From positions 1-38,390 of IMG/VR virus record IMGVR_UViG_3300042112_000092: 38,390 bases of DNA; one strand, written 5' to 3'. This DNA comes from a virus. Position 1 is the first letter of the stretch; every line of letters starts with the position of its first letter. Below the pieces are notes generated by a model. That model was not told the origin of the DNA. It saw nothing but the letters and a program-made list of their open reading frames with translations, and made no database searches. This document shows, one piece after another, positions 5,229-38,390 of the stretch. Made by a program: the position numbers and the translations under genes.

Positions 5229-5512
5229 CAGACCACCCGGCTGTTATGGCTTACCGCAAGGGCGTAAGCACTGAGGACTTAGTATCCTTTATAGAATCTT
5301 TTGCCTCCCTCCGAGCCAGCCGTGTGCGTGGTGTGGGTGCGACACAGTACGCACACGCAACTGGCCAGAGGTTTGAGCAATACTCTTTAGATGACACCAT
5401 CCGGGAGTTGGTTGAAGAGTTGGCAGATGCCAGTAATTACCTGGACTTTCTTGCTATCAGAGTATTGAGCCTATCTCCTACCATCAAGGAGTCGATTATA
5501 GATTGTGACTAA
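5198..5512 (+). CDS. MazG-like nucleotide pyrophosphohydrolase family protein (tentative)
   Basis: 104 residues from ATG 5198. The frame is open back to 5090, but the upstream part is unlikely protein and overlaps the small frame at 5109. The C-terminal half has YSLDDTIRELVEELADASNY, an E-x-x-E-E-x-x-D-x-x-N arrangement like the metal-binding helix of all-alpha NTP pyrophosphatases (MazG/dUTPase-2-like). Such enzymes cleanse nucleotide pools or lower alarmones in phage infection. Only one of the two usual helices is obvious, so the call is tentative. Confidence 0.5.
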   Translation: MDRDTTRTPLADHPAVMAYRKGVSTEDLVSFIESFASLRASRVRGVGATQYAHATGQRFEQYSLDDTIRELVEELADASNYLDFLAIRVLSLSPTIKESIIDCD

Positions 5513-6161
5513 TAATCTTCCAGATGGCGTCGGCGAGTTGGTGAAAGAGAGAGTGGCGGTAGTTCATAGAAACTATAGCCGTTGGGTGGAGAGGGAAGAC
5601 TTAGTACAAGAGGGTTTACTCTGGTGTGTAGCCAGGGCTGATGTAATTACCGATGCTTTCGATGAGCCAGATGATGAGTTGCGTAAGTATAAACTCAAAC
5701 GGATAGGCTGGCAGATACTCAGAACGTGCGAGCGATATGCTCGCCGGGAGAAGTCTATTAAATCCGGATACCTAGTAGGAGATGAATACTTCTACGAGAT
5801 AAGCACCATCTCACAGATGTTGCCGCACATCCTCACCAATATCTTTGATGATGTATTACTGGAGCAGGCACAGCAGTTGGTTGATGATGGTATGCCTCGT
5901 CGCACTAGCGCACCAGCAGAGGGACGCAACCTCTTGGCTATGCTCATAGACATCAAGCGTGGCTATCAGTTACTAGAGAAGTACGATATTGATAATGAGA
6001 CTGAACATACGAAGTACATCAAGGCACGCTACTACTATGAGATGACGCTACAGAAGATAGCAGATGAGTATGGTTGCTCAGTCTCTACTGCCGACAGACG
6101 TTGTGAGAGCGCATTAAAAGCGCTCCAGCGCTTTGTCGGAGGGGATAGCCCGTGGAACTAG
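5505..6161 (+). CDS. Sigma-factor-like / HTH regulatory protein
   Basis: 218 residues, GTG 5505, overlapping the previous gene. The N-terminus has WVEREDLVQEGLLWCVARA, resembling sigma-70 region 2.1 (DLxQEG). The C-terminus has MTLQKIADEYGCSVSTADRR plus CESALKAL, a region-4-like helix-turn-helix. The middle (about 60-175) is helical and unlike an ordinary ECF factor. It may direct host RNA polymerase to the late operon. Together with WhiB it makes two transcription-related genes in one operon. Confidence 0.7.
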   Translation: MTNNLPDGVGELVKERVAVVHRNYSRWVEREDLVQEGLLWCVARADVITDAFDEPDDELRKYKLKRIGWQILRTCERYARREKSIKSGYLVGDEYFYEISTISQMLPHILTNIFDDVLLEQAQQLVDDGMPRRTSAPAEGRNLLAMLIDIKRGYQLLEKYDIDNETEHTKYIKARYYYEMTLQKIADEYGCSVSTADRRCESALKALQRFVGGDSPWN

Positions 6162-6568
6162 GCACACTACAGGAGGCACAGTTATTTGAATATCTCAAGA
6201 CCTACCACTACAACGACCTCATTAAATCCGGTAACACCTACGACACCTTTGATTGTGTGTCACAGAAAGCAGGAGTCTATGCCGAACTCAAATGTCGTCG
6301 AACGCACTATCCGGATTTGCTTATTGAAAAAAGTAAATGGGATAACTTGGTCCTCCACGCTCACAGTCAAGACCTCGATGCGTGGTACATCAACTCAACA
6401 CCAGAAGGTATCTGGGGTTTTCATTTACAGTATGAGTTCGAGCCACGATGGGAATCCAAACAGATGCCAGTTACCACAGATTTCTCAAACAATAACTGGG
6501 TGAGTAAAGTAGTCGGCTTCTTGCCGACCTCGTTAGGCAAGGTACTCTATGCCCCTGTATCCCTATAA
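6152..6568 (+). CDS. PD-(D/E)XK endonuclease-like protein
   Basis: 138 residues, GTG 6152. After a helical start, DTFDCVSQKAGVYAELKCRR gives the D34 ... E45-x-K47 nuclease core, and HYPDLLIEKSKWDNL follows as in many small phage endonucleases. Target unknown: host DNA degradation or packaging-related nicking are the usual roles. It overlaps the sigma-like gene by 10 bases and the zinc-ribbon gene by 20. Confidence 0.65.
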   Translation: MELGTLQEAQLFEYLKTYHYNDLIKSGNTYDTFDCVSQKAGVYAELKCRRTHYPDLLIEKSKWDNLVLHAHSQDLDAWYINSTPEGIWGFHLQYEFEPRWESKQMPVTTDFSNNNWVSKVVGFLPTSLGKVLYAPVSL

Positions 6569-6725
6569 GTGTGAGTTCTGCGCTAACTACCTAGAGGTAG
6601 AGCGTGGCGTGGATGAAGATAGACCGAACCCTTCGTGTAATTTCTGCGGTGTACAGATGACCCGCGTGTGGTCTGCCCCCTCGATACAGTTCAAGGGGAC
6701 AGGTTTCTACTCGACTGACGGATAG
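6549..6725 (+). CDS. FmdB-family zinc-ribbon protein
   Basis: A 58-residue frame from ATG 6549. MPLYPYKCEFCANYLEVERG and PSCNFCGVQMTRVWSAPSIQ supply two CxxC pairs, and the ending FKGTGFYSTDG is the FmdB signature (FKGxGFYxTD). FmdB-type ribbons are putative regulators, common in actinobacteria and their phages. It closes the rightward operon. Its stop is two bases from the stop of the leftward gene at 6728. Confidence 0.82.
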   Translation: MPLYPYKCEFCANYLEVERGVDEDRPNPSCNFCGVQMTRVWSAPSIQFKGTGFYSTDG

Positions 6726-6734
6726 TTTTATCCG
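6719..6734. terminator. Short dyad between convergent genes
   Basis: CGGATA (6719-6724) and TATCCG (6729-6734) form a 6-bp stem around GTTT exactly where the rightward and leftward operons meet stop to stop. There is no long T-run, so it is at best a weak bidirectional terminator. Confidence 0.3.
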
Positions 6735-6934
6735 AGTATTATTTTGGCCAGGTGAGCACGCGCCTCTTTCAACGAATGAAAGTCTTTGACGTGTTCCCAC
6801 CCCAATCCTTCTCTTCTAGAGATACTCCAGTTACACATACCTGGATTACAGTTATCTCCAATCCATCGGTAGATGTGGTAATCATCTCCGTATGAATAAG
6901 AGCCTGGGTTTTCGCGTGTCAATTTTATTTTCAT
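6728..6934 (-). CDS. Small unknown protein under its own consensus promoter
   Basis: 68 residues. I choose the second ATG (6934) because GAAAGGGGTAAAA sits directly upstream; the first ATG is at 6949. It begins MKIKLTRENPGSYSYGDDYH and ends with a helix (SLKEARAHLAKIILG). It is Trp/Tyr-rich with two Cys (C33, C38). Not recognised. It has a strong promoter (6979-7007) and a leader hairpin of its own, so it is expressed separately from the rest of the leftward block. Confidence 0.65.
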   Translation of the reverse strand: MKIKLTRENPGSYSYGDDYHIYRWIGDNCNPGMCNWSISRREGLGWEHVKDFHSLKEARAHLAKIILG

Positions 6935-6948
6935 TTTTACCCCTTTCA

Positions 6949-6971
6949 TTGAGCGTACCCTTTACACTCAA
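6949..6971 (-). promoter_or_regulatory. 5'-leader hairpin with AAAGGGTA loop
   Basis: Read leftward, TTGAGTG and CGCTCAA pair (one G-U) around the loop TAAAGGGTA. It begins at about the predicted transcription start and ends immediately before the ribosome-binding site. The loop repeats the AAAGGGTA core and is an 8-base complement of the loop of the terminator hairpin at 7031-7060. The rightward strand would have an A-C mismatch, so the fold favours the leftward transcript. Confidence 0.55.
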
Positions 6972-6978
6972 TAAAACC

Positions 6979-7007
6979 ATTATAGCACAACACTTTTTGT
7001 TTGTCAA
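6979..7007 (-). promoter_or_regulatory. Consensus sigma-70 promoter, leftward
   Basis: Leftward TTGACA (7007-7002), a 17-base spacer, and TATAAT (6984-6979): both hexamers match the consensus exactly. It would start transcription near 6972, just upstream of the leader hairpin and the gene ending at 6728. Confidence 0.85.
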
Positions 7008-7030
7008 GCATCGGTGTTTTGACAATTAGA

Positions 7031-7060
7031 AAGCCCCGTCCGAAAGGGTAGACGGGGCTT
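7031..7060 (-). terminator. Terminator-like hairpin with anti-RBS loop
   Basis: AAGCCCCGTC (7031-7040) and GACGGGGCTT (7051-7060) form a perfect 10-bp stem. Read leftward, the loop is TACCCTTTCG and the stem is followed by TTTCTAATTG, a weak T-rich tail, so it probably ends the leftward block. The loop is complementary to the GAAAGGGTA of the ribosome-binding sites in that same block. Confidence 0.65.
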
Positions 7061-7063
7061 AGA

Positions 7064-7104
7064 TGTAGCGGAGCGGAAAGGGTAAGAATACGCTCGACGC
7101 TACA
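7064..7104 (-). ncRNA. Hairpin exposing a 13-base complement of the block's RBS leader
   Basis: TGTAGCG/CGCTACA (7064-7070 with 7098-7104) and GAGCG/CGCTC (7071-7075 with 7091-7095) form a 12-bp stem with a 2-base bulge. Read leftward, the 15-base loop TATTCTTACCCTTTC is the complement of GAAAGGGTAAGAATA and so pairs perfectly with 13 bases of the leader GAAAGGGTAAGAAATG found before several upstream genes. It lies in the 3' UTR, 3 bases past the stop at 7108. Confidence 0.5.
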
Positions 7105-7107
7105 CGT

Positions 7108-7290
7108 TTATTGTAACAGAACTAGGACACTCACGCAAGGGTCTCCGCCCTCATCCCATTCTGCTTGACTCTCCTCACTCTCGAACTCATACGTTCCTTC
7201 GTGAGTAGCACAGACTGGATGGCTTATCCATCCCTTCTTCATACCGAAACTTATCCACAAACCAAACAATTTATTATCTATTAGTACCAC
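7108..7290 (-). CDS. Small actinophage-type protein, unknown
   Basis: 60 residues from GTG 7290, overlapping the end of the transglycosylase gene by 10 bases. It contains GMKKGWISHPVCATHEG and EWDEGGDPCVSVLVLLQ, a pattern I know from short uncharacterised actinophage genes. Two cysteines and a conserved His might bind a metal. Last gene of the leftward block before the 3' hairpins. Confidence 0.65.
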   Translation of the reverse strand: MVLIDNKLFGLWISFGMKKGWISHPVCATHEGTYEFESEESQAEWDEGGDPCVSVLVLLQ

Positions 7291-7727
7291 GGATTACCTC
7301 TCGCCTTCTCCCTCTTCCACTTTGCCAACGCTCGGCAGGGACTTGAATAACGATGTTTGATGTATCGCAATCCTTTGAGGATTTGGATAGCGGGGTCGGT
7401 GCTTGTCTCTTTGAGTAGTTGTGCAATACCAAAGGCACTACTACGAGGGTTGTTCGCCTTACTATCAAACCTACTCTCACTGGTCCAAAGAGTTCGCAAA
7501 CATTTCCACTCGCTCCCTTGCCATCCAAAGCCAGCCTGAGCGTACGCCTTAGCCATCTTCGCATTAGCCCTCTTCTCCTTTATTGTGTCGTGCTTTGCTT
7601 GTATTACAGGTATCTCTTGAGGAGGGACGAACTTCGCCCTCTCCCACTCTTGCGCGTGGGGAAGAATGATTAAGGCTAGTACCGGCACCAGCAAGGTAGC
7701 CAGCACTAGCCTACGCTTATGGTTCAC
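7281..7727 (-). CDS. Secreted lytic-transglycosylase-like protein
   Basis: 148 residues, GTG 7727. The N-terminus MNHKRRLVLATLLVPVLALI is a signal peptide or anchor. A charged linker follows. Then comes the catalytic-type domain: WKCLRTLWTSESRFDSKANN with E84 as the likely acid, SSAFGIAQLL (96-105), and RYSSPCRALAKWKRE. This is the compact transglycosylase fold of actinobacterial secreted proteins. It would cut peptidoglycan outside the membrane. It is not in the late lysis cassette, so it may act early (wall remodelling, superinfection) or assist lysis. The two cysteines (C76, C132) could form a disulfide. Confidence 0.75.
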   Translation of the reverse strand: MNHKRRLVLATLLVPVLALIILPHAQEWERAKFVPPQEIPVIQAKHDTIKEKRANAKMAKAYAQAGFGWQGSEWKCLRTLWTSESRFDSKANNPRSSAFGIAQLLKETSTDPAIQILKGLRYIKHRYSSPCRALAKWKREKARGNPWY

Positions 7728-7807
7728 CTATTAATCTTCTCCTCTATCACCATTATTAACCACGCTATTGCTATCGCAACCAGCGCACAGATAACTACCT
7801 CTCTCAT
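7724..7807 (-). CDS. 27-residue transmembrane peptide
   Basis: ATG 7807 behind GGGGGAGAGG. MREVVICALVAIAIAWLIMV followed by IEEKINR is a single hydrophobic helix with a charged end. Its TGA overlaps the GTG of the transglycosylase gene, so the two are translationally coupled. A partner role (pinholin-like or export helper) is inference. Confidence 0.65.
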   Translation of the reverse strand: MREVVICALVAIAIAWLIMVIEEKINR

Positions 7808-8022
7808 CCTCTCCCCCTTCCTTGTGCTATCGCCTTTCGGATAATCTCTGTAATATCTAATCGCTCCGTTGGTGGGGACTTCTCATCATTCTCGTACCAC
7901 CCACGAATGAAGAGCCTGGAACCAGGCACAGCGAGGAATCTTTTTATCGCGCTCTCTTCCACATTGGTAAAGACTTTAGACTTGTTTGGCGTTACTATCT
8001 CATACTGTGTGGAGAAAGTCAT
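7804..8022 (-). CDS. Small unknown protein
   Basis: 72 residues from ATG 8022, chosen for GAAGGGAGAGAA directly upstream; a further in-frame ATG lies at 8037. It has a strand-rich N-terminus (FSTQYEIVTPNKSKVFTNV), GSRLFIRGWYEND, and a helical basic C-terminus ending GRGRG. Overlaps both neighbours. Not recognised. Confidence 0.6.
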   Translation of the reverse strand: MTFSTQYEIVTPNKSKVFTNVEESAIKRFLAVPGSRLFIRGWYENDEKSPPTERLDITEIIRKAIAQGRGRG

Positions 8023-8278
8023 TTCTCTCCCTTCCACATTTCAGACAATCTTCTAGTGGGGCGCTGTCAGAATCCCACTCGTAGAAACCACACCCAGGGC
8101 AGGGAGTCTCGCTCTCCTGCCGTTGCTTGGCCATACCTAACTCCAGATAGTGAACCATAGACATTAGTTCGTTCACTACCTCCTGCCCGTTGAGGGCAGG
8201 GGAAGCCAGGAGTTTCTCCGCGTTGCGCTTATGTAACATACTGCGTTCATACAGATACGTTGCCGTTGGGTCGCTCAT
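8000..8278 (-). CDS. Small protein with C-terminal zinc ribbon
   Basis: 92 residues, ATG 8278. A helical N-terminal half (YLYERSMLHKRNAEKLL, EVVNELMSMVHYLE) is followed by PCPGCGFYEW and DCLKCGR, two CxxC pairs that should bind zinc. It overlaps the next gene by 23 bases. The family is unknown; a protein or nucleic-acid adaptor is plausible. Confidence 0.68.
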   Translation of the reverse strand: MSDPTATYLYERSMLHKRNAEKLLASPALNGQEVVNELMSMVHYLELGMAKQRQESETPCPGCGFYEWDSDSAPLEDCLKCGRERNDFLHTV

Positions 8279-8502
8279 ATCCTCGCCCTCTCATTCTCTC
8301 GTTTGTACTTTTCTTTGCCTAGTTGTTTGGCGTACTCGATTTCCTCATCGGGCGCGGTAGAACCTAGCGCCCGATAGTATTCCTCCATCTCGTCCACTTC
8401 CCCCTGGATAAGTAGACACAGATAGGAACAGAGAGGCGCGGGGTTTTTCCCGTTGCGCCAGTAGTCAGAAGGTATCTCCTTCCCGCATTGGTTACACTTC
8501 AC
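8275..8502 (-). CDS. Small Cys-rich zinc-binding protein
   Basis: 75 residues from GTG 8502, behind GGGGGAGAGG; an upstream in-frame start at 8532 lies inside the preceding gene. It begins MKCNQCGKEIPSDYWRNGKN and continues with PLCSYLCLL, giving CxxC plus CxxxC, then a charged helix (EVDEMEEYYRALGS ... KYKRENERARI). Its stop overlaps the next ATG. Unknown role. Confidence 0.62.
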   Translation of the reverse strand: MKCNQCGKEIPSDYWRNGKNPAPLCSYLCLLIQGEVDEMEEYYRALGSTAPDEEIEYAKQLGKEKYKRENERARI

Positions 8503-8689
8503 CCTCTCCCCCTTCCTTTTCTGGTAGGTCAATTTTCTTTATCGCCTTCTCAACTGCCTTACGCCAATCGCGGGCGTACCCTTCCGCTACTGGTAGCCGG
8601 TTAGGGTCGGGGTCTGCCAGGTCGTAGAAATCTACCAGCCAGCCGAACTCATCGCCCTTTAGCGACATTACTAAGACGTGTTCACTCAT
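8492..8689 (-). CDS. Small unknown protein
   Basis: 65 residues from ATG 8689, with GAAAGGGTGGAG upstream, a variant of the block's leader motif. MSEHVLVMSLKGDEFGWLVD, then YARDWRKAVEKAIKKIDLPE, reads as strands followed by a helix. Its start overlaps the stop of the 36-residue zinc-ribbon gene (TAATG). Confidence 0.6.
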   Translation of the reverse strand: MSEHVLVMSLKGDEFGWLVDFYDLADPDPNRLPVAEGYARDWRKAVEKAIKKIDLPEKEGGEGEV

Positions 8690-8799
8690 TACTCCACCCT
8701 TTCTAAGGTTGGTTGTCCGCAACGCTGGCAATTCCAGCGCTCGCCATCAGCGCTAGAGGTGTAGTCCACAGCGCACCCGCATTTCATACACTTACTCAT
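8689..8799 (-). CDS. 36-residue zinc-ribbon microprotein
   Basis: ATG 8799. MSKCMKCGCAVDYTSSADGE then RWNCQRCGQPTLERVE contains two CxxC pairs about 20 residues apart and little else. It is coupled to both neighbours by TAATG overlaps. Metal binding is likely; function unknown. Confidence 0.6.
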   Translation of the reverse strand: MSKCMKCGCAVDYTSSADGERWNCQRCGQPTLERVE

Positions 8800-8903
8800 T
8801 ACGCTAAGTCCTTTCCATCGTGGATACATTGACGACACATAAACCAACCCTCTCCCTCTTTGATAAAGGAGGCAGGCTCTTCACAGATATAACACTCGTT
8901 CAT
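8799..8903 (-). CDS. 34-residue zinc-ribbon microprotein
   Basis: ATG 8903. MNECYICEEPASFIKEGEGW then FMCRQCIHDGKDLA: again two CxxC pairs and a short spacer, like a reduced treble-clef or ribbon. The start is read through the junction GAGGTGGACGCGTAATG shared with other genes of the block. Confidence 0.6.
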   Translation of the reverse strand: MNECYICEEPASFIKEGEGWFMCRQCIHDGKDLA

Positions 8904-9058
8904 TACGCGTCCACCTCTTCCTTCTTCATCTGACGAAGTACCCACTTCAGAGCCTCTTCCCATCCCACGAGGAGGGAAAGACTGCTATTTCCATCCTGCT
9001 CAGCGCGATTCATCTCGTCGCGCAACTTGCTGAGTTCTTCTCGTATGACCTTCTCCAT
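8903..9058 (-). CDS. Small helical protein, paralogue of 9297-9440
   Basis: 51 residues from ATG 9058 (the frame is open to 9097, but the junction GAGGTGAGCGCGTAATG marks the start). MEKVIREELSKLRDEMNRAE and LLVGWEEALKWVLRQMKKEE align with the 47-residue protein at 9297-9440. Helical, charged, unknown function. Confidence 0.62.
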   Translation of the reverse strand: MEKVIREELSKLRDEMNRAEQDGNSSLSLLVGWEEALKWVLRQMKKEEVDA

Positions 9059-9297
9059 TACGCGCTCACCTCTCCCAGTAGTGCGGTGTCCAGCCATTGA
9101 CTAGCAAGGAATAAAGTAATCTCCCTGCCCGCCTCCTCCATCGCTTTCATTAAGGTAGGCGCCACTCCTGCCTGCTCCAGGATAACCTCGCCCTCATTGG
9201 TGAGTAGGTCTATAACCCACGCTCGCCCGCTTACGCTTTCAGGGTCGTAGTTCTCGATTACTTCTAACTTAAAATAGGATTTACTTAACTCGTTCAT
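9058..9297 (-). CDS. Small unknown protein
   Basis: 79 residues, ATG 9297. MNELSKSYFKLEVIENYDPE, a strand-rich middle (GRAWVIDLLTNEGEVILEQ), then helices ending LLGEVSA. The final EVSA codons are the GAGGTGAGCGCG that serves as ribosome-binding site for the next gene. Not recognised. Confidence 0.62.
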   Translation of the reverse strand: MNELSKSYFKLEVIENYDPESVSGRAWVIDLLTNEGEVILEQAGVAPTLMKAMEEAGREITLFLASQWLDTALLGEVSA

Positions 9298-9440
9298 TAC
9301 GCGCTCACCTCCTCGTTAGATAAGACCCACTCCAACGCCTCAACCCAACCGGCGAGAACGTCATCTGTCCCATCAGTAATAGAGGAAATATCCTCACGAA
9401 TTGCCTCTAACTCTTGCTTGATTACTGTTATATCTTTCAT
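9297..9440 (-). CDS. Small helical protein, paralogue of 8903-9058
   Basis: 47 residues, ATG 9440, with the leader GAAAGGGTAAGAAATG. MKDITVIKQELEAIREDISS and LAGWVEALEWVLSNEEVSA match the 51-residue neighbour (I.(Q/E)EL..(I/L)R.(D/E) and (A/V)GW.EAL.WVL). The pair indicates a local duplication. Unknown function. Confidence 0.65.
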   Translation of the reverse strand: MKDITVIKQELEAIREDISSITDGTDDVLAGWVEALEWVLSNEEVSA

Positions 9441-9565
9441 TTCTTACCCTTTCGTACTCGTTCTAGTCCTCTTTTGTGAAACTCTCCCGCCATATCTGCC
9501 AGCGATAGCGCCCCCAGTATCGAGAGCGTAGTAACTACCGCCCATAGTCCTAGTACCCAGTCCAT
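9437..9565 (-). CDS. 42-residue membrane protein
   Basis: ATG 9565, after GAGAGGCTCTGAT. MDWVLGLWAVVTTLSILGAL then SLADMAGEFHKRGLERVRKGKK: one transmembrane helix and a basic tail. The last codons (RKGKK) are the GAAAGGGTAAGAAA leader of the next gene. Its own role is unknown. Confidence 0.6.
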   Translation of the reverse strand: MDWVLGLWAVVTTLSILGALSLADMAGEFHKRGLERVRKGKK

Positions 9566-9566
9566 A

Positions 9567-9914
9567 TCAGAGCCTCTCATATCGGAGAGCATTACGCCCC
9601 TCTAGTCCAAAGAGAGCAAACGATAGGCTCTCGACGGTGTGAAAGCCCATATCCATACCCGTACCCTCCACCCGTAGCGAGCGGTGGCCGTCTTTCTCCA
9701 CTAGGCGCCAACCTAGAGCGTGCGCCGTGTAGTAGGTAATCTCCTCTATCTTGCCATTATTGACGGTGAAGAGGTTGAGGCTACGCGACATACCGGAGGA
9801 AGATACGCTATGTTGTAACACGTAGACAGTCTGCCCCTCCTTCAGATAGTAGGAGAGTAGTCTCTCCTTCGCGTACTGTTTCTCCTGCTCTTTCTCTTTC
9901 TTCGTAAGTGTCAT
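9567..9914 (-). CDS. Conserved phage protein of unknown function (SSSGMSR ... GMDMGFH type)
   Basis: 115 residues, ATG 9914. The motifs YVLQHSVSSSGMSRSLNLFT and EGTGMDMGFHTVESLSFALF are those of a small, widely distributed phage protein family that I recognise by sight but cannot name functionally. The core is a compact alpha/beta domain with an N-terminal charged helix. The best conserved member of the leftward block. Confidence 0.72.
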   Translation of the reverse strand: MTLTKKEKEQEKQYAKERLLSYYLKEGQTVYVLQHSVSSSGMSRSLNLFTVNNGKIEEITYYTAHALGWRLVEKDGHRSLRVEGTGMDMGFHTVESLSFALFGLEGRNALRYERL

Positions 9915-10102
9915 TTTTTACCCCAAGAGTTTTGTTCTGTATATGGCTCGGCTACGTACTCAGCCCATTTTATTACATCACGGGGAAACTCAGAGAGAGC
10001 CTTTTGTTCCCCTATCTCTAACGCTTGCTCCTCAGTTTCTGCTTCCACTTCATAATAGATATTACTATTTTCTGAGTAATACCCACGAACTATCCACTTC
10101 AT
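9911..10102 (-). CDS. Small unknown protein, DpnD/PcfM-like pattern
   Basis: 63 residues, ATG 10102 with the full leader GAAAGGGTAAGAAATG. MKWIVRGYYSENSNIYYEVE then AETEEQALEIGEQKALSEFP is the strand-strand-helix arrangement of small DpnD/PcfM-like proteins; compare the 61-residue protein at 4024-4209. Overlaps the downstream gene by 4 bases. Confidence 0.65.
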   Translation of the reverse strand: MKWIVRGYYSENSNIYYEVEAETEEQALEIGEQKALSEFPRDVIKWAEYVAEPYTEQNSWGKK

Positions 10103-10120
10103 TTCTTACCCTTTCCCGTT

Positions 10121-10175
10121 CTAGGACGTTCGCCTAGTATCCGGCTACCGAGGAGGGTACTCTCGCCCCTCCCCG
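10121..10175 (-). promoter_or_regulatory. Intergenic hairpins upstream of 10102
   Basis: CTAGG/CCTAG (10121-10137) and a longer stem, about 9 bp with one mismatch, around 10149-10175, whose leftward core reads GAGGGGCGAGAGTACCCTC. They stand between the gene ending at 10187 and the RBS of 10102. A closely similar hairpin occurs at 10582-10607. No T-run, so processing, stability or attenuation seem likelier than simple termination. Confidence 0.5.
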
Positions 10176-10186
10176 ATAGTCAAGCA

Positions 10187-10375
10187 CTACGCGCTAGGAA
10201 ACTTTAGCCGTGTCGCATTGACCCAAGCCTCACCCTCGCCCCCTTCCGGGGTTACGAGGTAGCGAGGCTCCCCGTAGGACATCTTCCCCTCTAGTATCCT
10301 CACCGGTACCCGAAACGCCTCAGTTCGTAAATATCCGACTTGTCCGATTCGTTGCGCTAACTCTGATACCTTCAC
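10187..10375 (-). CDS. Small unknown protein
   Basis: 62 residues, GTG 10375, overlapping the previous stop. MKVSELAQRIGQVGYLRTEA has a helix-turn look. RYLVTPEGGEGEAWVNATRL resembles a small beta-barrel strand pattern. The gene start follows GAGGTGGGAGCGTGA, a variant of the block's junction motif. Not recognised. Confidence 0.6.
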   Translation of the reverse strand: MKVSELAQRIGQVGYLRTEAFRVPVRILEGKMSYGEPRYLVTPEGGEGEAWVNATRLKFPSA

Positions 10376-10545
10376 GCTCCCACCTCCTCAATCCACAGAT
10401 AGGGATAATCCCTCTCACTCTTCCATTCTTCGAGCAACTTCTCCGCCTCTTCTCGCGTATCGTAATCCAAACGCGAGGAAAATCTCGCGTAACTCCTTGC
10501 CCGCTTGGGATTCTCGTACGCCCCGTGTACTGTGTATTTCTTCAT
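10372..10545 (-). CDS. Small unknown protein
   Basis: 57 residues, ATG 10545 with GAAAGGGTAAGAAATG. MKKYTVHGAYENPKRARSYA, then DTREEAEKLLEEWKSERDYP and LWIEEVGA. The pattern is strand-helix-strand, as in other tiny phage proteins that handle a single ligand or partner. Unknown. Confidence 0.6.
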   Translation of the reverse strand: MKKYTVHGAYENPKRARSYARFSSRLDYDTREEAEKLLEEWKSERDYPYLWIEEVGA

Positions 10546-10560
10546 TTCTTACCCTTTCTT

Positions 10561-10607
10561 AGAGCGCCTTTCGCTCTCCACCTCTGAGGGTACTACGCCC
10601 CTCAGAG
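10561..10607 (-). promoter_or_regulatory. Tandem hairpins upstream of 10545
   Basis: AGAGCG/CGCTCT (10561-10577, leftward loop AAAGG) and CTCTGAGGG/CCCTCAGAG (10582-10607, leftward core GAGGGGCGTAGTACCCTC) sit directly before the RBS. The second is close in sequence to the hairpin at 10149-10175. Confidence 0.55.
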
Positions 10608-10642
10608 ATAGGCAACGCCTTGCGCGATATATCCTCTTATTC

Positions 10643-10909
10643 TTATTCTTCGGAATTGTCCGAATTGTCCTCCTCCTCTTCGCATTCGTGGCTGTCCTCT
10701 TCGATGTCCTCCTCGCCACATTCAGCGCAATCGGTTTGCTCATCTTCAATCGTAACCTCTTCAATGCTCGCCTTGCTGGAGTTATCGTAAAACTCTTTCC
10801 AGGCCATCTCCTCAATCTCTTCTGAGGAGAGTTCCTCGCCGTCTTCTAGTTCAATATAGGCGATATATTCGGCAACTACTTTTACTTCATACTTTTTTAC
10901 TACGTCCAT
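10643..10909 (-). CDS. Strongly acidic small protein
   Basis: 88 residues, ATG 10909 with GAAAGGGTAAAGAAATG. An N-terminal strand region (KKYEVKVVAEYIAYIELEDG), a helix (SSEEIEEMAWKEFYDN), then a Cys-bearing acidic tail (CAECGEEDIEEDSHEC) ending in Glu/Asp/Ser. The acidic tail could mimic DNA or chelate metal. Unknown. Confidence 0.62.
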   Translation of the reverse strand: MDVVKKYEVKVVAEYIAYIELEDGEELSSEEIEEMAWKEFYDNSSKASIEEVTIEDEQTDCAECGEEDIEEDSHECEEEEDNSDNSEE

Positions 10910-10937
10910 TTCTTTACCCTTTCATTAGTGGGGTCTA

Positions 10938-10984
10938 GTTGCCCCCTACCCCTGCCCCGCTCTCGCGGGGCAAGGATAGGCAAC
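10938..10984 (-). promoter_or_regulatory. Long intergenic hairpin upstream of 10909
   Basis: A perfect 8-bp stem TGCCCCGC/GCGGGGCA with TCTC loop (10953-10972) is nested in an outer GTTGCC/GGCAAC pairing (10938-10943 with 10979-10984). It lies between the gene ending at 10987 and the RBS of 10909. Confidence 0.5.
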
Positions 10985-10986
10985 CG

Positions 10987-11232
10987 CTAGGCCGTAACGC
11001 CTTCGATTATCGTTTCTGCCTTCTCCTTGTCGTAGAGTTCGCAATACGCCCGCGCCTTCTTCGCGGTAGTGAAAGATTCGGCAAGGAAATCAATCTCCCG
11101 CCCTAGCGTGTAGCGCCCCGCTCTCCACTTACCCGCGCTCTCTTCCCAGATATAGAGATAGCGAAAAGCCTTACTTTCGCCCTCTCCAGTGCGTTGATAG
11201 ACTGCGTTAGTGTCTGCCCCTGCCCATTTCAT
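10987..11232 (-). CDS. Small unknown protein
   Basis: 81 residues, ATG 11232 with GAAAGGGTACAAAT. RYLYIWEESAGKWRAGRYTL and FTTAKKARAYCELYDKEKAE suggest beta strands followed by a helix, like many single-domain early phage proteins. Not recognised. Confidence 0.62.
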   Translation of the reverse strand: MKWAGADTNAVYQRTGEGESKAFRYLYIWEESAGKWRAGRYTLGREIDFLAESFTTAKKARAYCELYDKEKAETIIEGVTA

Positions 11233-11256
11233 ATTTGTACCCTTTCTCTATCTAAC

Positions 11257-11310
11257 GGCCTCGTCAGTACCCGCCCTACGGGTAGACACCCCTTGCGGGG
11301 TGTTTCGGCC
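11257..11310 (-). promoter_or_regulatory. Hairpin cluster upstream of 11232
   Basis: ACCCG/CGGGT (11269-11283) and a perfect 7-bp stem ACACCCC/GGGGTGT with TTGC loop (11286-11303), enclosed by GGCC repeats at 11257-11260 and 11307-11310. Same position relative to the RBS as the other intergenic hairpins of the block. Confidence 0.5.
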
Positions 11311-11522
11311 TAGTTGTGGAGAGATTCTGTCGCGGTCATCCAAATATTATCATTGAAACGGGGGTTATTCTCGAAAAACTTACCGGAGAGAATCACCGAC
11401 AATTCATAGAGAGCACAATTAGCGCCCGACATAATCTCTTCGCGGTTTCCTGATTCAAGCGCAACTTTTGCGCGTGCCTCGCGGATAGCCCCTGCGATGA
11501 GTTCATAATCTTTACGTGTCAT
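11310..11522 (-). CDS. Small early phage protein, first gene of the leftward operon
   Basis: 70 residues, ATG 11522 with GAAAGGGTAAAGAAATG. MTRKDYELIAGAIREARAKV and CALYELSVILSGKFFENNPR are typical of a short helical protein that is frequent in phages (MTRKDYxLIA). Function unknown. It lies 43 bases downstream of a consensus promoter, so it should be the first and most expressed gene of the block. Confidence 0.7.
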   Translation of the reverse strand: MTRKDYELIAGAIREARAKVALESGNREEIMSGANCALYELSVILSGKFFENNPRFNDNIWMTATESLHN

Positions 11523-11564
11523 TTCTTTACCCTTTCAGTTAGTAGATTATTTAGTTATAGGAGA

Positions 11565-11593
11565 AGATTACCGCCTATAGGCCATAGTGTCAA
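11565..11593 (-). promoter_or_regulatory. Consensus promoter of the leftward operon
   Basis: Leftward TTGACA (11593-11588), a 17-base spacer and TAATCT (11570-11565). The spacer holds the near-palindrome CTATGGCCTATAG, a possible operator. It drives the genes from 11522 down to 7108. Confidence 0.8.
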
Positions 11594-11631
11594 GCGTTAT
11601 TTCGGTCTTTTTGGTCATAGATTTTGGTGTC

Positions 11632-11680
11632 GATATGTCGACAATTTTAGGGCGCTATTCGAACAGGTGTTCGATAGGCT
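11632..11680. promoter_or_regulatory. Two dyads upstream of the leftward promoter
   Basis: TGTCGATATGTCGACA and TCGAACAGGTGTTCGA are both inverted repeats of operator type (6-bp arms with a 4-base spacer) within 50 bases of each other, between the leftward promoter and the iterons. They may bind a regulator or replication protein. Confidence 0.4.
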
Positions 11681-11741
11681 AAGTTACTGAAGAGGTGAAA
11701 CGAGTAACTTACTAACGGGTAACTTACTGGCGGGTAACTTA
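11680..11741. repeat. Iteron-like repeats (GTAACTTA)
   Basis: GTAACTTA occurs at 11704-11711, 11719-11726 and 11734-11741 with exact 15-base periodicity. An inverted copy TAAGTTAC lies at 11680-11687. Such spaced repeats are usual binding sites of an initiator or regulator. They lie just left of the DnaA boxes. Confidence 0.65.
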
Positions 11742-11766
11742 GGGAAGGGGTCGCCCTGACTCTGCC

Positions 11767-11787
11767 GGAGGGGTAGTCCGCCCCTCC
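11767..11787. other. Perfect hairpin between iterons and DnaA boxes
   Basis: GGAGGGG (11767-11773) and CCCCTCC (11781-11787) form a 7-bp stem. The leftward text GGAGGGGCGGACTACCCCTC resembles the hairpin cores at 10149-10175 and 10582-10607. Confidence 0.45.
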
Positions 11788-11804
11788 AAATCCAATAACA
11801 AAAC

Positions 11805-11855
11805 TTATCCACAGGCTGTGGAAAAACTGGGGATAACTTTACGAGGTTATCCACA
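11805..11855. other. Putative replication origin: cluster of DnaA-box-like sites
   Basis: TTATCCACA at 11805-11813 and 11847-11855 match the strong DnaA box exactly. TGTGGAAAA (11817-11825) and TGGGGATAA (11828-11836) are reverse-oriented one-mismatch forms. Four sites in 51 bases, next to iterons and in an 850-base gene-free region, strongly suggest an origin that recruits host DnaA. This fits a phage with helicase and primase but no polymerase. Confidence 0.72.
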
Positions 11856-12039
11856 GGGCACGCCCCCGCGCTCGCCGTGCCCGCCTCCCGCTACGTTACT
11901 AACCAGGCAAACGCGCCCCCTTGCCCAAAGCCCGCAAAGTCAGGAAACCAACCCGGGGGTAGTGAAATGCGCGGGCATACCATTAGTACTCCCCAACTAA
12001 AAATCTCCACTAAATTCAAGGGTTGTAGCGATATGACTA

Positions 12040-12116: not shown

Positions 12117-12300
12117 GGGGGATAAAATCCCCGGAGCACTCTGTGCGGAGGGGATTGGGGGTCGTAAGGCTCCTACGGCGAAGCCTCCGGAGCCACCTAG
12201 GCGGAGGAGGCTAACGCCCCCTAACGTACCGACGCGGTGAGCGTCGGCCCACTCGATGAAGGAGAGGTCTGTCTTTTTCTAAAAGACCTTCTCTCCGGAT
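12117..12300. other. Hairpin-rich region before the terminase: candidate late leader or packaging site
   Basis: CCCC-GGA-GCAC/GTGC-GGA-GGGG (12129-12153), GGCTCC/GGAGCC (12168-12194), a perfect CCGACGC/GCGTCGG with GGTGA loop (12229-12247), and a longer imperfect stem (12261-12297) follow each other without a gene. A TATATATAG stretch precedes them (12107-12115). Its position just upstream of terminase is where pac or cos sites and late promoters often lie; I cannot tell which. Confidence 0.4.
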
Positions 12301-12371
12301 AAATTTTCCTCTCTGGATGAAAAATCTTATCCGCGCCATTGTCGATAAATCTATTTTTCCATTGGAGTCTA

Positions 12372-37851: not shown

Positions 37852-38068
37852 AGAGAAAGCAATCCAGGTACTACATTCGTACCTACGAGCAGCAGTAGCG
37901 GCAGCAATGGCGCTATACCTAGCCGGAGAAACCGACCCTAAGAAGTTGGGCTACGCAGCACTCGCCGCAGTAGCGGCTCCTGCTATGAAGGCACTAGACA
38001 GAAGCGCAAAAGAGTTCGGTCTAGGTTCTTCGGTTACTACACGTAAGAAGGTTGTTAAGAAGAAGTAG
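37844..38068 (+). CDS. Holin
   Basis: 74 residues, ATG 37844, overlapping the endolysin end by 8 bases. Two short hydrophobic Ala-rich helices (YLRAAVAAAMALYLAGE and LGYAALAAVAAPAMKALDRS) and a charged C-terminus (TTRKKVVKKK) fit the r1t-type holins common in actinophages. It opens the membrane so that the endolysin reaches the wall. Last late gene; the terminator follows. Confidence 0.8.
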   Translation: MTKEKAIQVLHSYLRAAVAAAMALYLAGETDPKKLGYAALAAVAAPAMKALDRSAKEFGLGSSVTTRKKVVKKK

Positions 38069-38249
38069 GTTCCTGTGAGGCAACTGAGGGCGTTCCTGTA
38101 ATGGGGACGCCCTCTTTTTTTATTTTTACAATTTCGTATCCTTCTTGCTGTAAATAGTTGCTAATAAAATTAGCCATTCGCATTGGCGCGTCGGGCAACT
38201 CTTCGCCATATAAACGCCATAAAATGTTCGCAAGTGTGCTTAAACCCAC
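38055..38249 (-). CDS. Conserved small protein of unknown function, allele 2
   Basis: 64 residues, second version of 151-345: WRLYGEELPDAPMRMANFIS and LQQEGYEIVKIKKEGVPI against the WRVYGEELPDPPMVMANFII and LGQEGYEVVEIKKEGAPI of the first. Mostly conservative changes and many silent ones. Overlaps the holin gene and contains the terminator in the same way. Confidence 0.7.
   Translation of the reverse strand: MGLSTLANILWRLYGEELPDAPMRMANFISNYLQQEGYEIVKIKKEGVPITGTPSVASQEPTSS
38086..38121 (+). terminator. Rho-independent terminator of the late operon (right copy)
   Basis: GAGGGCGTTCC (38086-38096) pairs with GGGGACGCCCTC (38103-38114) and seven T follow. Compared with 182-217, one wobble pair became T-A and a neighbouring pair became a wobble, so the stem is preserved despite substitutions. 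Confidence 0.9.
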
Positions 38250-38390
38250 GGATACCTCCCCATAGGTGAGCCACCTCCAGTGGCTCCCCGTTACCCTTTA
38301 CTCGCTACGCTCGTATTATACACAGAACTGGATGCGACACGCCGGAGCGTGTCACATAATTGCCTATGTCACCCTCTGGATGTACCCTTA
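38250..38390. promoter_or_regulatory. Divergent leader, right copy (cut by window end)
   Basis: Carries the same two hairpins (GAGCCAC/GTGGCTC and GACACGC/GCGTGTC) and the same leftward TATAAT as 346-488. Nearly unchanged between copies, unlike the gene next to it, which supports regulatory constraint. Confidence 0.5.

Follow-up and report, generated by a model that had tools for sequence, protein, structure and literature searches.

The 38,390-base IMG/VR virus record IMGVR_UViG_3300042112_000092, used here at full length and called the window, raises the question of why two hairpins at the 3' end of a leftward operon of small genes display in their loops the complement of the ribosome-binding leader that precedes genes of that same operon. 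Across dozens of related phages the loops covary with the ribosome-binding sequences, so that the two hairpins, here called the 3' element, probably serve as an RNA brake built into the operon and acting on it.

The core of the leader, GAAAGGGTA, is present eight times in the window, compared with 0.34 copies expected, a number reached in none of 100 shuffles. Six copies, all on the minus strand, closely precede the starts 9440, 10102, 10545, 10909, 11232 and 11522 at the spacing of a Shine-Dalgarno (SD) sequence, and the remaining two are inverted, one in the loop of each 3' hairpin. The leaders of the starts 9440, 10102 and 10545 are identical (GAAAGGGTAAGAAATG), as claimed in the initial annotation of this DNA, and GAAAGGGTA is also found upstream of the other three starts, for which a leader had been proposed as well. 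These six starts, referred to below as tagged, open new translation units, and most of the other genes of the operon overlap the end of the preceding gene in the list of open reading frames (ORFs); the gene at 9440-9297 is the head of a series of mostly overlapping frames that reaches 7281. Among the rightward genes of the window, none has the GAAAGGGTA leader.

On the minus strand, positions 7105-7063 and 7060-7031 fold into two hairpins with an energy of -36.8 kcal/mol (z = -7.3), which agrees with the two strong hairpins described at first. Loop 1, TATTCTTACCCTTTC, can pair perfectly over 13 nucleotides with the three identical leaders, and loop 2, TACCCTTTCG, over 9 nucleotides with the leaders in general and over 10 with that of 9440, one more than previously counted. 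Shuffling the loops within their composition yields a 9-base complement at a rate of 0.9% for loop 1 and 0.14% for loop 2; the initial annotation had called the same complement in two loops unlikely by chance. Hairpin 2 has the form of an intrinsic terminator, with a G+C-rich stem (7060-7031) followed leftward by the U-rich tail TTTCTAATT, and the direction of termination, as judged from U tracts, is only modestly asymmetric (leftward 24 versus 12, of 42). Among the 83 perfect-stem hairpins of the window (stem of at least 7), a list that excludes hairpin 1 because of its bulged stem, only this terminator hairpin contains the leader's complement. A prediction of RNA-RNA pairing, proposed in the initial annotation, places the tagged leaders among the best sites of the operon for loop 1, with duplexes of -14 to -19 kcal/mol.

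A comparison with related phages had been named beforehand as the trial of this idea, leaders that shift while the loops do not being the outcome that would speak against it. The idea survived, and loops track leaders in many lineages. Relatives were gathered as the best 80 per scan, out of several hundred that exist, and protein-guided searches led to at least about 160 loci that include the zinc-ribbon gene lying beyond the operon's end, with at least 118 distinct 3' regions. Relatives retain a terminator at the end of the operon, and many of the distant 3' regions have, at the same place, a single hairpin or a pair of them, with pyrimidine-rich loops and differing stem sequences, for which the stem pairing percentages, canonical by construction, show only that the arms differ between genomes. 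Hairpin 1 and its 15-nucleotide loop are unchanged between diverged flanks in the near-identical L055 and L058, in L094, L095, L096 and L104 (88-95%), and in L048 and L187 (75% DNA identity). In L208, no copy of GAAAGGGTA is present in its 40-kb record; six starts have AAGGGGTA and the terminator loop is TTTACTACCCCTTT, leader and loop having been altered together, both shifted by one G/C. Among the more distant relatives, the leader/loop pairs include AAGGGGTA/TACCCCTT, AAGGAGG/CCTCCTT (L247), GGAAGGG/CCCTTCC (L226, L347, L341), GAAAGAG/CTCTTTC (L298, L393, L340) and GAAAGGG/CCCTTTC (L375). The distant relatives L097-L103, in which the transglycosylase gene is on the strand of the zinc-ribbon gene, have no comparable 3' hairpins. 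As a separate observation, many genes of these genomes are preceded by another start-associated sequence, CTTAAGACAGGAG, and CTTAAGACA occurs inside their genes too. The 83 stretches recovered by an exact GAAAGGGTAAGAAATG scan were rejected as relatives, most of them probably being chance matches.

The correspondence between loops and leaders was also assessed statistically. For 17 loop classes, matches to the leaders of the own genome numbered 87 for 7-mers (36.9 +- 8.1 with operons permuted) and 41 for 8-mers (14.0 +- 4.8), values as high as these were obtained in none of 50,000 permutations (P<2e-5), and the result stands without the window and without L208. Because the representatives and some loops of this test were hand-picked, a second one was begun from the leaders alone. 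The own 3' end contains the complement of the own enriched leader 7-mers in 24 of 59 genomes, compared with 8.5 +- 2.3 after permutation (maximum 19 in 100,000), and in 20 of 55 (6.2 permuted) when only one member of the window's clade is kept. As for control sequences in the 3' ends of the 59 genomes, the leader itself is found in none, its reverse in two and its unreversed complement in seven. The most common loop is TAACCCTTT. In 21 genomes of its class, the operon strand has 20 nine-base complements, 16 of them located at starts (24% expected), versus none of 31 on the opposite strand. The tagged genes within this class are mostly unrelated to one another, and the leader therefore behaves as a movable tag.

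Because the loops match the leaders of their own genome, on the operon strand and at gene starts, the pairing between loop and leader is, judging from sequence, under selection. An autoinhibitory or antisense RNA action on translation is the likeliest reading, and we consider it reasonably probable that the 3' end is an antisense element directed against the operon's own ribosome-binding leaders, giving delayed negative feedback. The initial annotation, which had proposed an autoinhibitory or stable antisense 3' end, is thereby supported in part: the antisense relation to the leaders of the same operon stands, owing to the covariation and to the own-strand complements at starts, while we infer the production of the RNA, its pairing in the cell and its inhibitory effect. 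The link between the two ends of the operon is well supported, but the sign and the form of the regulation are not.

In the proposed mechanism, the genes that open a translation unit would share the common leader (in the window, GAAAGGGTA followed by a short spacer), and transcription to the end of the operon would produce hairpin 1 and the terminator hairpin, which would display the leader's complement in their loops. Pairing of the loops with the leaders could then take place in cis, within one mRNA, or in trans, if the 3' fragment is released by processing. This pairing would mask the SD sequence, with the long loop also covering the bases between it and the start codon, and initiation would be lowered at the tagged genes and at the downstream overlapping frames once the transcript is complete and abundant. 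Since the complement is at the 3' end and is present only after full transcription, delayed negative feedback on the gene block is suggested as the outcome. Upstream of hairpin 1, neither the 60-amino-acid ORF nor the transglycosylase gene contains a promoter-like site (at least 9 of 12 positions); the nearest one is at 7779-7752, and any small RNA (sRNA) would therefore arise by processing.

The 3' element appears undescribed in phages, and would work like the sRNAs with C-rich loops and like the OppZ type of autoregulation by a 3' untranslated region (UTR). In Staphylococcus, the hairpins H7, H13 and H14 of RNAIII have C-rich apical loops, and one such hairpin is the terminator. Xanthomonas sX13 (RF02232) also has C-rich apical loops, targets G-rich motifs independently of Hfq, and represses (PMC3771888). 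The phage element resembles both in its stable stems and in C-rich apical loops that would pair with G-rich motifs near starts, a likeness in the way of working and not in membership. Unlike these free-standing bacterial sRNAs, which have generic C runs and many scattered targets, the phage element has longer loops, specific to one operon-wide leader and located at the operon's own 3' end. The sX13 model RF02232 scored 15 bits on it (cut-off 50; E = 1.6), and a search of the element against Rfam returned no family at its gathering score and chance-level matches only. OppZ and CarZ are autoregulatory sRNAs of Vibrio cholerae derived from 3' UTRs, of which OppZ acts by its 5' end, with Hfq and RNase E, on one cistron start (PMC7398697). 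At the sequence level, the phage element shares with them the complementarity between the RNA of an operon's 3' end and a translation initiation region within that operon, but, unlike in OppZ, hairpin loops, including that of the terminator, complement up to six starts. Hairpins with two C-rich loops are also a feature of the 6C RNA of Actinobacteria, which is host-encoded and highly conserved (PMC6582537), and whose Rfam model had no match in 6900-7300 up to E = 10.

The loops might instead be general anti-SD sequences, mimics of the 16S rRNA 3' tail acting against host or all mRNAs, in which case the match to the leader would follow from its likeness to a ribosome-binding site. All the loops are pyrimidine-rich, the loop CCTCCTTTC of L238, L247, L256 and L228 resembles the 16S tail, and leader matches are few in many genomes. 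Such a role nevertheless seems rather improbable: the loops fit their own leaders far better than the leaders of other genomes, the match in the window goes beyond the SD sequence, taking in the bases GTAAGAA on the side of the start codon, and L208 has shifted both loop and leader by one G/C. It is also improbable that the pairing has a positive or architectural role, closing the mRNA into a loop, protecting it from RNases or keeping the leaders open. The same sequence facts would apply, and the hammerhead ribozymes upstream of leaders, described below, suggest a cut mRNA whose ends might need protection; however, the paired segment is the SD sequence itself, needed for ribosome binding, SD base pairing usually represses, and the precedents sX13 and OppZ repress. 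Sites at the DNA level, that is, a 9-mer bound by a regulator at the starts of genes and again, in inverted orientation, where the operon ends, like the stoperators of mycobacteriophages, would account for asymmetric repeats recurring within one operon, but are very unlikely, given that a DNA site needs no hairpin while the loop that holds the inverted copy repeatedly belongs to a strong RNA hairpin with a variable yet paired stem, and that the leaders stand at SD spacing. Ordinary terminator or stabilising hairpins, with a loop match due to chance or to an inverted-leader relic, are the least likely explanation, since, even though hairpin 2 has the shape of an ordinary terminator and matches are missing in some relatives, the same complement is in two loops, the 15-nucleotide loop is invariant, and the coupled change across lineages contradicts them. 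The relic had already been raised in the initial annotation, together with a rightward reading in which the loops titrate ribosomes; the former is disfavoured because a relic would not follow leader changes while the stem sequence diverges, as the loops do, and the latter because no rightward gene uses the leader.

Several observations count against an antisense element acting on the operon's leaders. The complement of the most enriched leader is absent from the 3' end in 35 of the 59 genomes, many relatives match one or two leaders only, or none, and in the TAACCCTTT class nine-base matches at starts are absent from 7 of the 21 genomes. Hairpin 1 of L208 fits a single leader, and the terminator loop of L048 and L187 lacks the complement while its stem is retained. 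The permutations control relatedness in part only. In the window itself, pairing over all 13 nucleotides would strain a 15-nucleotide loop, and the terminator, which is located between converging operons, may end rightward transcripts too.

Table 1. Features of the leftward operon, its 3' element and the adjacent cassette in the window
Feature	Position	Strand	Basis or remark
Leftward operon of small genes; last gene SLT-type transglycosylase, 7281-7727	7281..11522	-	ORFs; Pfam SLT PF01464; PHROG transglycosylase
Leader GAAAGGGTA of gene 11522-11310	11528..11536	-	9-mer count
Type II hammerhead ribozyme directly upstream of leader of gene 11232	11250..11310	-	Rfam RF02276, 40.2 bits (cut-off 37)
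Leader GAAAGGGTA of gene 11232-10987	11238..11246	-	9-mer count
Leader GAAAGGGTA of gene 10909-10643	10915..10923	-	9-mer count
Leader GAAAGGGTAAGAA of gene 10545-10372	10550..10558	-	Predicted duplex with loop 1, -19.1 kcal/mol
Leader GAAAGGGTAAGAA of gene 10102-9911	10107..10115	-	Predicted duplex with loop 1, -18.9 kcal/mol
Leader GAAAGGGTAAGAA of gene 9440-9297	9445..9453	-	Predicted duplex with loop 1, -19.2 kcal/mol; best site of the operon
Short ORF, 60 amino acids, between transglycosylase gene and hairpin 1	7108..7290	-	
Hairpin 1: bulged stem, 15-nucleotide loop TATTCTTACCCTTTC at 7076-7090, complements operon leaders	7063..7105	-	Fold; relatives
Hairpin 2: the leftward operon's intrinsic terminator; its loop TACCCTTTCG (7041-7050) complements the leaders too	7031..7060	-	Fold; tail TTTCTAATT
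Promoter-like site TTGACA-17-TATAAT of inserted cassette	6979..7007	-	12/12 consensus positions; just downstream of terminator
AAAGGGTA in loop of 5' UTR hairpin (ATTGAGTG-TAAAGGGTA-CGCTCAAT) of inserted gene 6949-6728	6956..6963	-	

Other structures accompany the leaders (Table 1). Type II hammerheads are also found directly upstream of tagged leaders in relatives (L096 5461-5521; L048 8596-8657 and 8903-8963; L187 4024-4084 and 4286-4347), with one to two per genome in the tagged operon, and their position suggests that they would cut the operon mRNA between genes, just before a leader. Other tagged leaders on the minus strand of the window are preceded by long hairpins within a CTATC...GGTAG frame (10915-10990, 10565-10640 and 10120-10200), which may be an undescribed RNA element; such hairpins are present in L048, L090, L187 and L192 as well, in several copies per genome, and have no Rfam match at cut-off. 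The 60-amino-acid ORF has no homologue in most relatives, where the hairpin is directly 3' of the transglycosylase gene.

Next to the terminator, positions 6720-7020 are an inserted cassette, absent from relatives except the near-identical L055 and L058, whose gene is an orphan of 73 amino acids led by GAAAGGGGTAAAAATG. The AAAGGGTA site in its 5' UTR is in a third hairpin loop, which could form kissing contacts with loops 1 and 2.

The operon is flanked by rightward replication genes, the last of which is the zinc-ribbon (FmdB-like) gene at 6549-6725, and by the rightward terminase gene, which starts at 12339. Upstream of the latter are two similar hairpins (12126-12156 and 12182-12212), with GGAGCACTCTGTGCGGA and GGAGCCACCTAGGCGGA between 7-bp stems, and the rightward early operon includes a sigma-factor-like protein at 5505-6161 on the plus strand (weak PHROG match, E about 1e-6). 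The ends of the record form a 92% identical repeat (1-439 and 37954-38390), both copies of which contain a minus-strand TATAAT upstream of GTAAAGGGTA and conserved small hairpins. Among named phages, there is no DNA match to positions 6000-12000, and the terminase relatives do not exceed about 45% identity; a host scan of species genomes gave a single weak match, in a metagenome bin.

A parallel is found in the cluster K mycobacteriophages, in which a Start-Associated Sequence (SAS), GGGATAGGAGCCC, is present at many starts. The SAS, which has had no known function since its description in 2011, includes the SD core and is preceded at about half of its sites by 17-bp inverted repeats (ESAS); the 2011 description reports a single site on the complementary strand for each of three K1 genomes, with no role assigned in the passages that mention it (PMC3203893). 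In Anaya, the sole complementary-strand site of the stretch examined, with two mismatches allowed, is between genes 96 and 97, in the loop of the hairpin CCTCCTATCC within a conserved element that may encode an sRNA. This element is present in 173 cluster K records, largely unannotated and in some annotated as part of a hypothetical protein gene. Its stem cells pair in 92.7% of cases across nine phages, with three pairs changed on both sides, and it is this pairing pattern that supports the hairpin, as the K1 region folds no better than mononucleotide shuffles. Upstream of the element (L424:32740-32960; Anaya JF704106, 59739-59959) is a near-invariant TTTTAGACT, a possible -10 region. No coupled change of SAS and loop emerges in cluster K, because outside K1 the SAS is kept while the loop is only similar, altered to YTCCNNTCCC, and Pixie, ZoeJ and Oscar have no such anti-SAS loop. 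An opposite-strand SAS of ZoeJ was rejected as an anti-SAS, being the ordinary leader of a leftward gene.

Like the SAS, the leader of the window is a repeated sequence with an SD core directly upstream of many starts, here six, and, as in subcluster K1, where the element is near the right end, the sole complement of the start-associated sequence is in hairpin loops of a conserved element. The two differ in sequence, GAAAGGGTA here as opposed to the consensus GGGATAGGAGCCC, and in phage group, and the K1 element, unlike this one, does not lie where a convergent operon ends. As for the ESAS repeats of cluster K, several leaders of the window have spacer hairpins and hammerheads upstream.

Tentatively, these cases may reflect a general phage strategy, in which start-associated sequences would serve as address tags and a hairpin with the complementary tag, at the 3' end of the operon or in an sRNA, would silence all the tagged genes, tag and anti-tag co-evolving in this environmental phage group and, independently, in the cluster K phages. 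Should the leaders and the 3' loops form such a pair, the function of start-associated sequences becomes directly testable, and leader repeats with complementary loops provide a genomic signature for finding such systems. If true, a protein-free switch made of one sequence would control a whole phage operon and co-evolve with its targets, which would be a new layout of autoregulation.
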